Assembly: GCA_020723385.1 (NCBI GenBank)
Contig: DYIZ01000048.1
Span: 1-35,160, forward strand
DNA length: 35,160 nt
Direction of reading: 5' to 3'
Source of the DNA: Candidatus Aquidulcis sp.
GTDB taxonomy: Bacteria > Chloroflexota > Anaerolineae > Anaerolineales > UBA4823
The notes under the pieces were generated by a model that saw only the letters and a program-made list of their open reading frames with translations, did no database searches and had not been told where the DNA came from. The position numbers and the translations under genes are program-made. Below are positions 9,571 to 13,377 of the stretch, piece by piece (position 1 is the stretch's first letter; each line of letters begins with the position of its first letter).

Positions 9571-9593
9571 CAGAACACATGTTCTGATATAAT
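9571..9593 (+). promoter_or_regulatory. Promoter with SOS-box-like palindrome
   Basis: TATAAT (9588-9593) is preceded by a perfect 7-2-7 palindrome CAGAACACATGTTCTG (9571-9586) that fills the spacer to a weak -35 (ATTAAA, 9565-9570). The core GAAC-N4-GTTC is the form of the LexA box of Bacillus and several other phyla. The placement would let a repressor block RNA polymerase directly. That the binder is LexA is inferred. Confidence 0.6.
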
Positions 9594-9628
9594 ACCTGTA
9601 GCTTGCCATCCCAAGCGCCCAACCGATC

Positions 9629-10015
9629 ATGTCACTCTGGCACAGGCTCCGACGGATTCTAGGCCTCCAGGTTATCCGCTTTGAACAGCCCGTAATTGAT
9701 GAACTGCAAAACCTGGCAGAACAGGAACGACGCCCCAAAGAAGCCGTGGCGGCGGATTTGATCGCGCTGGGACTCGTCCGCCGCCGCGCCGCTGAAGCCA
9801 GCCTGCACCGCTGGCGGCAGCTTTCGCCGCGCGAACAGCAGGTGGCGGCGCTGGTCTGCCGGGGGTACACCAACCGCCAGATCGCCGCCCGGCTGAAAAT
9901 TTCCCTGCCCACCGTCAAAACCCACGTTCGCAACATCCTCATCAAGTTCGGCCTGTCGCGCCGGGTGGATTTGCAGCAAAGCCTGGCCGATTGGGATTTC
10001 AGCGGCTGGGAATGA
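9629..10015 (+). CDS. LuxR/GerE-type regulator with a ribbon-helix-helix-like N-terminus
   Basis: 128 residues. The C-terminal half is a GerE helix-turn-helix: LSPREQQVAALVCRGYTNRQ, IAARLKISLPTVKTHVRNIL, IKFGLSRR. The N-terminal 55 residues (VIRFEQPVIDELQNLAEQER and PKEAVAADLIALGL) have the strand-helix-helix pattern of CopG-like ribbon-helix-helix proteins rather than a receiver or ligand-binding domain, so it is not a conventional two-component regulator. The start at 9629 is 35 bases after the -10 box; no strong ribosome site is seen. It stands just upstream of the polymerase cassette in the same direction, separated by 132 bases carrying that cassette's own promoter, and could regulate it. 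Confidence 0.88.
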   Translation: MSLWHRLRRILGLQVIRFEQPVIDELQNLAEQERRPKEAVAADLIALGLVRRRAAEASLHRWRQLSPREQQVAALVCRGYTNRQIAARLKISLPTVKTHVRNILIKFGLSRRVDLQQSLADWDFSGWE

Positions 10016-10112
10016 CGCGCCTACCAGTGGCTCATCCACCGGTTCTCCACCCCGCCCCTGGCTCATCCCAACGCTCACACCCTTTTTCATCCTATCCTCA
10101 TCCCGCAGACGA

Positions 10113-10141
10113 TTGCTCCCGCCCGCGGGATTTGCTATCCT
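10113..10141 (+). promoter_or_regulatory. Leaderless promoter of the polymerase cassette
   Basis: TTGCTC (10113-10118), a 17-base spacer and TATCCT (10136-10141), with the ATG six bases later at 10148. Transcription would start at the first codon. Confidence 0.55.
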
Positions 10142-10147
10142 GAGGGT

Positions 10148-10717
10148 ATGGATGAGCCACTCGCCCCGCCTCTCGACCGTTCCGGCCTGTTCCTGCTGAT
10201 CGCCCCGCGCGCCGCTGGCAACCGCCTGGTCAACGCCTGCGCCGCCAGCCTGGCGCTGTCTTGCCCGGTGCGCGTGCTGGACGGCGGCAATGGCTTCGAC
10301 GCTCTCGCCATCGCCCGCCTCGTTCGCCGCCAGACCCATCGGGTGGAAGCCAGCCTCGGGCGCATCCGCGTGGCGCGGGCGTTCACCTGCTACCAGGTGG
10401 CCGCGCTCCTTGCCGGGCTGGAGGCGGGCGCAGCTCCCATCCTGGCGCTCGATCTCCTGGCAACCTTCGGGGACGAGAACGTTCTCGCCGCCGAGCGCCT
10501 GCGCTTGCTGCGCCAGTGCCTGGCCCACCTCAAACGGCTGGCCGGGCAGGCCCCGCTGCTAGTCAGCGTCTCGCTGCCGGTCAGCGCCGCCCCTGCCTCT
10601 CAGATGGACGGTTACCTGGCGCTCCTGATGGATGCCGCCGATAACGTGTGGCGCTTCGAGGATCGCACTGACCCTTCGGGCCGCCAGATGACCTTGCCTG
10701 CCTGGGATAGGGTCTGA
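10148..10717 (+). CDS. RecA/RadA-like pseudo-ATPase of a predicted DNA-damage cassette (ImuA-like position)
   Basis: 189 residues. It has the pattern of a small RecA-fold domain: an initial strand and loop at the Walker A place reading LLIAPRAAGNR, then VRVLDGGNGFDALAIARLVR, then ILALDLLATFGDE as Walker B, then LLVSVSLP as the next strand. The P-loop GxxxxGK[ST] is degraded (the lysine and the Ser/Thr are replaced), so ATP hydrolysis is doubtful. Compared with RecA it is truncated to the core. The next gene begins three bases after the stop and the third overlaps it, so the three are one operon with the PolB-like gene. A role as recombinase-like accessory of that polymerase, as ImuA is for ImuB/DnaE2, is inference from context. 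Confidence 0.75.
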   Translation: MDEPLAPPLDRSGLFLLIAPRAAGNRLVNACAASLALSCPVRVLDGGNGFDALAIARLVRRQTHRVEASLGRIRVARAFTCYQVAALLAGLEAGAAPILALDLLATFGDENVLAAERLRLLRQCLAHLKRLAGQAPLLVSVSLPVSAAPASQMDGYLALLMDAADNVWRFEDRTDPSGRQMTLPAWDRV

Positions 10718-10720
10718 GCG

Positions 10721-10978
10721 ATGGGCCGCACCGTTCCATCCATCACCCAGGCATTCCTGCACGAAGAAGCATCATTCGCCCGCTTCCGCCGCGCCCTGCG
10801 CCGCTCCGACCAGCTCGCCCTCGACGATCTCTTCGCTGCCGCCCGCCAGCACCTGGCCGCCGCCGCGTACGCCGCCCACGCCCTGCCCTTCGAGATTTTC
10901 CTGCTGGCGATGCTGCTCGAAGAACATAAAGAAGTCATGCGCCTGCGGGCGCGGGTCGAAGCGCAGGATGGCGGATGA
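10721..10978 (+). CDS. Small helical protein of the polymerase cassette
   Basis: 85 residues, predicted all-helical: ITQAFLHEEASFARFRRALRR, DQLALDDLFAAARQHLAAAA, and FEIFLLAMLLEEHKEVMRLR. No cysteines or catalytic motifs are visible and I do not recognise the family. It starts 3 bases after the preceding stop and its own stop overlaps the ATG of the polymerase gene (ATGA at 10975-10978), so translation of the two is coupled. It is probably a structural bridge or clamp-like partner of the polymerase. Confidence 0.8.
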   Translation: MGRTVPSITQAFLHEEASFARFRRALRRSDQLALDDLFAAARQHLAAAAYAAHALPFEIFLLAMLLEEHKEVMRLRARVEAQDGG

Positions 10979-13377
10979 ACACGACCCTTTCAGGCTGGCT
11001 GCTGGATGTGTATCCCGATCTCAAAGGGGGGCTGGCCCTGTGGCTGATCGAGGATGCCGGGGCCGCGCGGGGTCGCCGCATCCGGTTGAGGCAGCCCTTC
11101 CCGGTGGTATTCTACGCCGCCGGGCCGGATGAGCGCCTGCGCGCCCTGTGGAAATACCTGCGCTCCCAGGAAATCCCCGTCGAATTGGAGCGCGCCGAGC
11201 GCCGCGATCTGTTCCAGCCCCACCCGGTGACGGTGATGCGCATTCAGGTGGACGACCCTGCCCGCCAGCCCGCGCTGCTGGCGCGGCTCGCCAGCGCCTT
11301 CCCCGATCTGACCTGGTACGATGCCGACCTCGCCATCTCCCTGCGCCACGCGGCGGTTTACGGAACCTTCCCGCTCGCTAAAGTGCGCGCTGTTGTGGAC
11401 GAGCGTCTGGCGGTTCACTCCCTGTCGGTATTGGATTCCCCCTGGGATCTCGATCCCCCTGCGGCCCCGCTGCGTATCATGCGTCTCGAGCCGGATTGCG
11501 ACCCCCATCACACCGCGCCGCGCTATCTCCAGATTCGCTGCGAGCGGCGGGAATATCGTCTGCCGCTGCCCACCTACCCCCCTCCGGCTCCCCCCATCGC
11601 AAATACAGCGATGGGGGGAGAGTCCCTGCCCCTCCCCCATCCGTGCTTTTCGGATGGGGGAGGCCGGGAGGGGGGCCGTCCGCTGTTGGTCAATCTCACC
11701 GCCATCCTCAAGCGCCACGATCCCGACCTGCTGCTCACCGCCTGGGGCGATACCTGGCTGCTGCCGTATCTGCTCGAACTCTCGGAAAGCGCGGGAATCC
11801 CGCTGCCCTTGAACCGCGACGCAAGCCAGCCAGTCGTTCACAAGCAGGAGCGCTCGTACCAGGCTTACGGCCAAGTGATCCACCGCGGGCGGCAGGTGCA
11901 TCTGTTCGGGCGCTGGCATATTGACATCTTCAACGCCATGATGTTCCATGACTACGGGCTGGACGGCATCCTCGAGTCGAGCCGCGTCACCGCTCTGCCG
12001 GTGCAGCAGGTTGCGCGGCAGTCGCCGGGGACGGGCATCTCTTCTATGCAGATCGTGACTGCCCTGCGGCAGGGGGTGCTCATCCCCTGGCGCAAGCAGC
12101 AGGCCGAGATGCCCAAGAGCGCCCTCGACCTGATCCACGCCGACCAGGGCGGGCTGGTCTACCAGCCCACCATCGGGCTGCACCGCGACGTAGCCGAGAT
12201 TGACTTCGTCTCGATGTACCCCTCGATCATGGCGCGCTTCAACATCTCGCCGGAGACGATAGGCGACGAATCGGATGAGTTTGCAGAGCAGGCGCCTGAA
12301 TTGAACTTGTGGGTCAAGCGCGAGACGCCCGGCCTGATCCCCCAGACGCTACGCCCGCTGCTCGACAAGCGCATCGCTTTCAAGCAGCGTATCCCCGAAT
12401 TGCCTGCCTGGGACCCCCGGAAGGCGGTGTACAAGGCCAGGGCGGCGGCGCACAAGTGGCTGCTGGTGACGTGTTTCGGCTACCTGGGCTACAAGAACGC
12501 CCGCTTCGGACGCATCGAGGCGCACCAGGCGGTGACGGCCTACAGCCGCGAATGCCTGCTGCGGGCGAAGGAAGCCGCCGAGGATGCCGGTTACACCGTG
12601 CTGCATCTGTATGTGGATGGGCTGTGGGTGCAGAAACCGGGCTGCGCTGCCGTAGCGGATATCCAACCCTTGTTGGATGAGATCGCCGTTCGCACGGGGC
12701 TGCCGGTGGCGTTGGATGGCATCTACCGCTGGGTGGCGTTCCTGCCCTCGCGGGTGAATACGCGTGTCCCGGTGGCGAACCGCTATTTCGGCGTTTTCCA
12801 GGATGGGACGATCAAAGTGCGGGGCATCGAGGCCCGCCGAAGAGACACGCCGCCCTTCGTCGCCCAGACGCAGATGGCGATCCTGGAATATCTGGCTGCC
12901 GCATCAAACGCTGATCAACTGCGGGAGCGGCTGCCCGAGGCGCTGGCTTACCTGAACCGCCGGGTACGCCAGCTTCGGGAGCGGCGCGTGTCCCTCCCGG
13001 AGTTGCTGGTGACGCAGAAGGTCAGCCGCGAGCTGGCGCTGTACCGCACACCGTCTCCGGCGGCGCGGGCGGCCCTGCAGCTTCAAGCTGTGGGCAAGAC
13101 GGTGCGTCCGGGGCAGCCGGTGAAACTTCTGTATTTACTCGGTAAGCCGGGCGTCCATGCCTGGGACTGCCTGCCGTCGCCATGCCTGGCGCAGGTGGAC
13201 ACGCGGCTGTATGTCGAGCTGCTGCTGCGCGCGGCGGAGGCGGTGCTGCAGCCGGTGGGCGTCTCGAAGGAGGCGCTGCGCGGCCGGCAGCAGCAGGCTC
13301 TTTTGTCCAGTTTTTCCACCCCGACAGGGCATTTTCTGGCAAGAAATATCAATAATGATATTGACATTATTTCATAA
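10975..13377 (+). CDS. Family B DNA polymerase homologue with degraded active sites (PolB2-like)
   Basis: 800 residues. Motif A is intact (DFVSMYPSI, Asp410). Motif B is altered: K494 remains, but the usual N and Y of KxxxNSxYG are V498 and F501 (KWLLVTCFG). Motif C, normally YGDTDS, reads YVDGLW (546-551): Asp548 remains, but the second aspartate, which binds the catalytic metals in family B enzymes, is Leu550. The exonuclease region is also degraded: in the DPD motif at 249-251 and the following stretch, the positions normally N and D are W257 and L262. Between 205 and 237 an in-frame palindromic repeat is inserted. The combination recalls archaeal PolB2/Dpo2, which also lacks canonical carboxylates and is tied to damage-induced mutagenesis. 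The frame is intact for 2.4 kb, arguing against a pseudogene. It could be a translesion enzyme with altered metal binding, or a structural factor. Confidence 0.88.
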   Translation: MNTTLSGWLLDVYPDLKGGLALWLIEDAGAARGRRIRLRQPFPVVFYAAGPDERLRALWKYLRSQEIPVELERAERRDLFQPHPVTVMRIQVDDPARQPALLARLASAFPDLTWYDADLAISLRHAAVYGTFPLAKVRAVVDERLAVHSLSVLDSPWDLDPPAAPLRIMRLEPDCDPHHTAPRYLQIRCERREYRLPLPTYPPPAPPIANTAMGGESLPLPHPCFSDGGGREGGRPLLVNLTAILKRHDPDLLLTAWGDTWLLPYLLELSESAGIPLPLNRDASQPVVHKQERSYQAYGQVIHRGRQVHLFGRWHIDIFNAMMFHDYGLDGILESSRVTALPVQQVARQSPGTGISSMQIVTALRQGVLIPWRKQQAEMPKSALDLIHADQGGLVYQPTIGLHRDVAEIDFVSMYPSIMARFNISPETIGDESDEFAEQAPELNLWVKRETPGLIPQTLRPLLDKRIAFKQRIPELPAWDPRKAVYKARAAAHKWLLVTCFGYLGYKNARFGRIEAHQAVTAYSRECLLRAKEAAEDAGYTVLHLYVDGLWVQKPGCAAVADIQPLLDEIAVRTGLPVALDGIYRWVAFLPSRVNTRVPVANRYFGVFQDGTIKVRGIEARRRDTPPFVAQTQMAILEYLAAASNADQLRERLPEALAYLNRRVRQLRERRVSLPELLVTQKVSRELALYRTPSPAARAALQLQAVGKTVRPGQPVKLLYLLGKPGVHAWDCLPSPCLAQVDTRLYVELLLRAAEAVLQPVGVSKEALRGRQQQALLSSFSTPTGHFLARNINNDIDIIS
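11576..11676. repeat. Two tandem perfect hairpins inserted in frame in the polymerase gene
   Basis: CTCCCCCCATCGC (11588-11600) pairs with 11608-11620 around a 7-base loop; CCTCCCCCATCCG (11631-11643) pairs with 11651-11663 around another 7-base loop. Both stems are perfect 13-mers. The flanks (C-rich before 11588, G-rich after 11663) can pair as an outer stem. The element encodes a low-complexity Pro/Gly segment between the N-terminal and exonuclease-like regions. Confidence 0.85.

Follow-up and report, generated by a model that had tools for sequence, protein, structure and literature searches.

A Chloroflexota PolB2 mutasome operon with a predicted LexA box and a LuxR-type first gene

The window, a 35,160-nucleotide stretch of contig C149 from a genome of 6.43 Mb in 239 contigs, comes from a host that is, by its relatives, an Anaerolineae member of the Chloroflexota. 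On the + strand, a nitroreductase-type gene is followed by a palindrome, four genes that we refer to as LuxR-type, iRadA, PPB2 and PolB2, and an MFS transporter gene. The palindrome (9571–9586, unstranded; CAGAACACATGTTCTG, with arms CAGAAC and GTTCTG around ACAT) is a predicted LexA box with the core GAACACATGTTC at 9573–9584, and directly downstream of it lies TATAAT (9588–9593, + strand), which, judged from the sequence, probably serves as the operon's −10 element. The first gene (9629–10015) encodes a small LuxR-type protein of 128 aa with a GerE helix-turn-helix (Pfam, E 1.2e-15), the second (10148–10717) iRadA, a 189-aa protein of RadA/Rad51 fold that has lost Walker A, the third (10721–10978) PPB2, an 85-aa arCOG07300-type PolB2 partner assigned by alignment and gene position, and the fourth (10975–13377) the 800-aa PolB2 polymerase. 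Only 3 nt separate iRadA from PPB2, and the PPB2 and PolB2 genes overlap by ATGA (10975–10978); the LuxR-type gene is set off from iRadA by a 132-bp gap, which a single transcript is assumed to span. All five features that an earlier sequence-only reading had listed for this locus (an SOS-box-like palindrome, a regulator, a RecA-like domain, a small helical protein and a family B polymerase) were found, and the last three genes are tightly coupled, as it had claimed.

PolB2 matches the family B polymerase profile PF00136 (E 8e-28), and its best NCBIfam match is the short type-B polymerase model NF004416 (E 3e-112). The predicted structure (pLDDT 87.5) has an archaeal PolB, 5mdn, as its top Foldseek match (E 2e-39). 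Alignment to solved PolBs places the motif A aspartate at D410 and motif C at Y546-V-D548, where active PolBs read DTD; the first motif C aspartate is gone, as the sequence-only reading had noticed, and the second is retained. The exo II aspartate is replaced by leucine. Among 100 PolB2 relatives, no sequence has Asp at the first motif C position (91 have Tyr) and none keeps the exo II Asp (Leu in 97, otherwise Ile or Phe); D410 and D548 are present in all 100, and the KxRG residues are likewise invariant. At the site of the D(K/R) motif before motif A, which contacts the PPB2 arm in models of bacterial PolB2 mutasomes (PMC11791011), 99 of the 100 carry Asp, often followed by Q (ADQGG in the window). 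Ratios of dN/dS between close pairs of relatives were 0.05–0.16 for PolB2, 0.03–0.12 for PPB2 (one very close pair excepted) and up to 0.30, mostly below 0.2, for iRadA. These values indicate purifying selection on all three genes, which we assign to the family and not to the window copy because the window's nearest relative is too distant for dS. For the polymerase, this family-level result is the opposite of the relaxed selection that the sequence-only reading had named as counting against its proposal.

The window's PolB2 also carries an in-frame dispersed palindromic repeat (11577–11674, + strand, aa about 200–234) with two 13-bp perfect stems, both inverted repeats, that adds about 34 residues and is absent from the other 28 sequences of the alignment. 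The repeat has 15 further matches elsewhere in the genome, and the segment that it encodes is predicted to be disordered (pLDDT <50 at residues 205–229).

Neither iRadA nor PPB2 gave anything useful as a single sequence against Pfam or NCBIfam. Against the PDB, iRadA by itself matched nothing, and only the profile of its family gave matches, to archaeal RadA (E 3e-8). The AlphaFold model of iRadA (pLDDT 91) has RadA, Rad51 and DMC1 as its top Foldseek matches (E 9e-8). A Walker A pattern is found in 1 of 92 iRadA proteins and is missing from that of the window, which is a RadA/Rad51 core without the N-terminal domain and without the ATPase residues. A RecA-like domain with a broken Walker A is present, as had been read from the sequence, in the form of a RadA-fold protein; the description of it as ImuA-like does not hold, since the profile matches archaeal RadA/Rad51 and the cassette has neither ImuB nor DnaE2. 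We conclude that iRadA is derived from RadA/Rad51.

The PPB2 of known bacterial PolB2 mutasome operons is a helical protein of about 90 aa. PPB2 relatives are 36–84% identical, and all 25 aligned proteins begin with MG[RKH]T, which in the window is MGRT from residue 1; in published models this MGRT arm inserts between PolB2 and iRadA (PMC11791011). A C-terminal clamp-like motif is present in 54 of 89 iRadA proteins (e.g., QLRLF, QPRLF, QLSLW) and on seven PolB2, with both partners carrying it in only three loci, a distribution that fits the published complementarity in which iRadA or PolB2, but seldom both, bears the clamp motif (PMC11791011). The iRadA of the window ends in QMTLPAWDRV, where QMTLPAW is a plausible candidate for a variant beta-clamp motif. 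At three loci (L055, L058, and L059) iRadA and PPB2 share one open frame, a fusion also reported for some bacteria, and at L058–L060 it is PolB2 that bears a clamp-like motif.

Of 61 related genomes, 36 encode a true PolB2; the matches number 37, one being to the repeat insertion only. A scan of a genome collection gave 542 relatives, the best 80 of the 542 being Chloroflexota. The complete iRadA-PPB2-PolB2 set, whose lack of conservation would have counted against the sequence-only reading, is present in 91 of 101 distinct loci and its order never differs. In one genus (L040, L041; L199, L200) the operon is split, with PolB2 alone at one place and LuxR-iRadA-PPB2 at another. The three genes together with lexA were already noted in bacteria by Makarova 2014 (PMC4104785), and Timinskas, Timinskas and Venclovas 2025 (PMC11791011) modelled the bacterial operon, for which iRadA-PPB2-PolB2 is the only order in bacteria, with PolB2, iRadA and a PPB2 trimer forming a heteropentamer; most PolB2 in that work lack the first DxD aspartate, and the exonuclease is dead. 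The bacterial PolB2 group is termed G2 in a NAR 2026 survey (PMC12926913). With its three genes adjacent, on the same strand and in the order iRadA-PPB2-PolB2, the locus is a Chloroflexota copy of this known bacterial PolB2 mutasome operon. A bacterial counterpart of archaeal PolB2, which the sequence-only reading had put forward as a novelty, was thus reported in 2014 (PMC4104785) and modelled in 2025 (PMC11791011).

To assess the palindrome, we counted GAACN4GTTC within 300 bp upstream of genes, with the reversed pattern as control. This pattern, which matches the known Gram-positive LexA core, precedes 28 of 29 lexA genes of relatives (reversed control, 0), and GAACACATGTTC itself occurs identically before lexA in two of them; lexA of the window's own genome has GAACGGATGTTC upstream, with the same core as the operon box, and its recA has a one-mismatch site only. 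The box precedes 50 of 91 PolB2 operons at distinct loci with enough upstream sequence, the exact pattern being missing within 300 bp at the other 41. With duplicates included, it is found at 54 of 102 operons vs. 1 of 102 for the reversed control; the 19 box sites in the remaining 1.07 Mb correspond to about 0.6 expected at 102 operon fronts. The bare box in one genome is near chance because the 6.43-Mb genome holds 45 exact copies vs. 36 of the reversed pattern, and the excess is visible only through comparison of relatives. Many relatives have the box between TTGAC and a TATAAT-like element; in the window no good −35 match was found upstream of the box, which would likely occupy the −35/−10 spacer. 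In the genus with the split operon, the PolB2 half and the LuxR-iRadA-PPB2 half each have their own box. Taken together, the comparative data strongly support predicted LexA control of the PolB2 operon. An SOS-box-like palindrome at 9571–9586 had been the starting point of the sequence-only reading, and the box along with three conserved, coupled genes supports the SOS-type, PolB2-based damage-tolerance cassette that it proposed.

Further AGAACN4GTTCT sites were seen in passing elsewhere in the genome. AGAACAAAAGTTCTGATATAAT at L064 1501–1514 (G000:C31:5732–5745) resembles the window closely in both box and −10 element, and the gene behind it, for a 275-aa FtsK/AAA-type ATPase, is a candidate further SOS gene that we do not claim as a regulon member. 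At position 1501 of L066 and L067, AGAACN4GTTCT overlaps the start of two genes resembling IS200/IS605-type transposases; this is possibly a coincidence of a conserved transposase gene start, and these genes too are not claimed as regulon members.

The LuxR-type gene stands first in 55 of the 91 operons whose upstream sequence is available, in each case preceding iRadA, a frequency that rules out a chance neighbour. Across the 61 genomes, kinship ignored, 29 have both the LuxR-type gene and PolB2, seven PolB2 only, five the LuxR-type gene only, and 20 neither. The box GAACN4GTTC is found in front of 18 of 20 further LuxR-type copies fetched from elsewhere; two of these 20 regions (L220 and L228) adjoin iRadA, and the other 18 have none of iRadA, PPB2 or PolB2. 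Because it leads 55 of 91 operons and its further copies so often carry the box, the LuxR-type gene looks like a dedicated gene of the predicted SOS regulon. The encoded protein has, besides the GerE domain, a conserved tail, WDFSxW. It had been read as a LuxR/RHH regulator, of which the GerE/LuxR helix-turn-helix stands and the RHH-like N-terminus is weakly supported, by matches of 2 of 11 relatives to RHH models (E 0.01–0.02). In the searchable papers, supplementary tables aside, we found no apparent description of this gene.

A protein that has lost both the first DxD aspartate and the exo II aspartate, and whose motif B is changed too (KWLLVTCFG for K..NS.YG), could be a truly dead polymerase that serves only as a scaffold or replication regulator, as was first proposed for archaeal PolB2. 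We consider this improbable, since the motif A aspartate, the second motif C aspartate and KxRG are invariant in 100 relatives, none of which a scaffold would need, and Dpo2 of S. islandicus polymerizes despite the same loss (PMC8764526). Archaeal Dpo2 is an active, mismatch-extending enzyme without exonuclease in which the second Asp is a metal ligand, and the same has been suggested for bacterial G2 (Feng et al. 2022, PMC8764526). The sequence-only reading had called the polymerase inactivated; that label is out of date because archaeal PolB2 works as an extender polymerase despite lacking the same Asp (PMC8764526), and the second Asp never varies among the 100 relatives. We also reject a pseudogene or decaying polymerase, given the family's dN/dS values and the invariant residues.

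Control of the operon invites a different reading as well, in which the operon responds to damage through the LuxR-type protein instead of LexA, and the palindrome is that protein's own operator; the position of its gene at the head of 55 of 91 operons, usually with the box right before it, would suit such an arrangement. It sits poorly, however, with the same box at 28 of 29 lexA genes and at 13 of the 36 PolB2 operons that have no LuxR-type gene, and with the match of the box to the known Gram-positive LexA core, and we rate it as highly improbable. The sequence-only reading had drawn a parallel to the ImuA-ImuB-DnaE2 cassette, with the C-family enzyme swapped for PolB2, and the layout does offer, behind a LexA-type box, a RecA-fold protein that has lost its ATP site, then a small protein and then an error-prone polymerase. 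Shared descent fails on the match of iRadA to RadA/Rad51 rather than RecA/ImuA and on the lack of an ImuB-like Y-family or a C-family gene in the cassette, the genome's sole Y-family gene lying elsewhere, and published trees place the origin of PolB2 operons in archaea (PMC11791011). We give such a swap next to no chance; what remains of the parallel is a functional analogy.

We therefore favor a LexA-repressed PolB2 mutasome operon, and regard the whole scheme that follows as very probable. As comparative genomics suggests, LexA bound to GAACN4GTTC, usually in the spacer that separates the promoter's −35 and −10 elements, would hold the operon off; on damage, activated RecA would bring about cleavage of LexA, and the LuxR-type gene, iRadA, PPB2, and PolB2 would be co-transcribed. 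Going by the published models and the motifs seen here, a PPB2 trimer would wedge one of its MGRT arms between PolB2 and iRadA, the ATP-site-less iRadA would dock on PolB2 as a pseudo-filament subunit, and iRadA or PolB2 would supply the sliding-clamp motif. By homology to S. islandicus Dpo2, the proofreading-free PolB2 may then extend mispaired or lesion-bearing primer ends, giving tolerance at the cost of mutations. The LuxR-type protein, made simultaneously, might be a second-tier SOS regulator of the Anaerolineae that has so far gone undescribed, with the mutasome itself or genes of the late damage response under its control, a part of the picture that we offer tentatively, as something short of an even prospect.

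As a route to damage-induced mutagenesis, PolB2 mutasomes have received little study, and the activity tests that we found are from archaea only. Because about 50 Anaerolineae operons conserve the box, damage induction, as predicted for the bacterial version, can be tested directly, also in cultured carriers such as Leptolinea tardivitalis, which has the LexA-type box, and Longilinea arvoryzae, which has the operon. The putatively co-controlled LuxR-type protein may point to an added SOS layer in the Chloroflexota, a phylum in which little has been described of the SOS response.

With ImuA-ImuB-DnaE2 and Pol V (UmuD'2-UmuC-RecA), the locus shares the predicted combination of an SOS-controlled error-prone polymerase and a RecA-fold partner, whereas those systems use an unrelated polymerase family and a RecA-type partner, and the window has a RadA-type partner and no ImuB. 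The Dpo2/PolB2 operon of Sulfolobales (PMC7390963, PMC8764526) is closer, with a homologous polymerase, the same active-site change and a three-gene operon; it is induced by damage in archaea, and the archaeal operons are tied to control of the Orc1/Cdc6 type rather than to LexA (PMC7390963, PMC8764526). Polymerase activity has been demonstrated for its Dpo2, whereas that of the window's PolB2 is predicted. The published bacterial G2 operon agrees in its three genes and their order, the MGRT arm, the lost Walker A, the loss of the first Asp, the dead exonuclease and a link to LexA. That link is a neighbouring lexA gene there and a predicted LexA box in the promoter in the window, which in addition has a LuxR-type gene in first place and a repeat insertion in PolB2. 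For the Chloroflexota, our analysis adds to the known operon sequence evidence for its predicted direct control by LexA and a putatively co-controlled LuxR-type protein.
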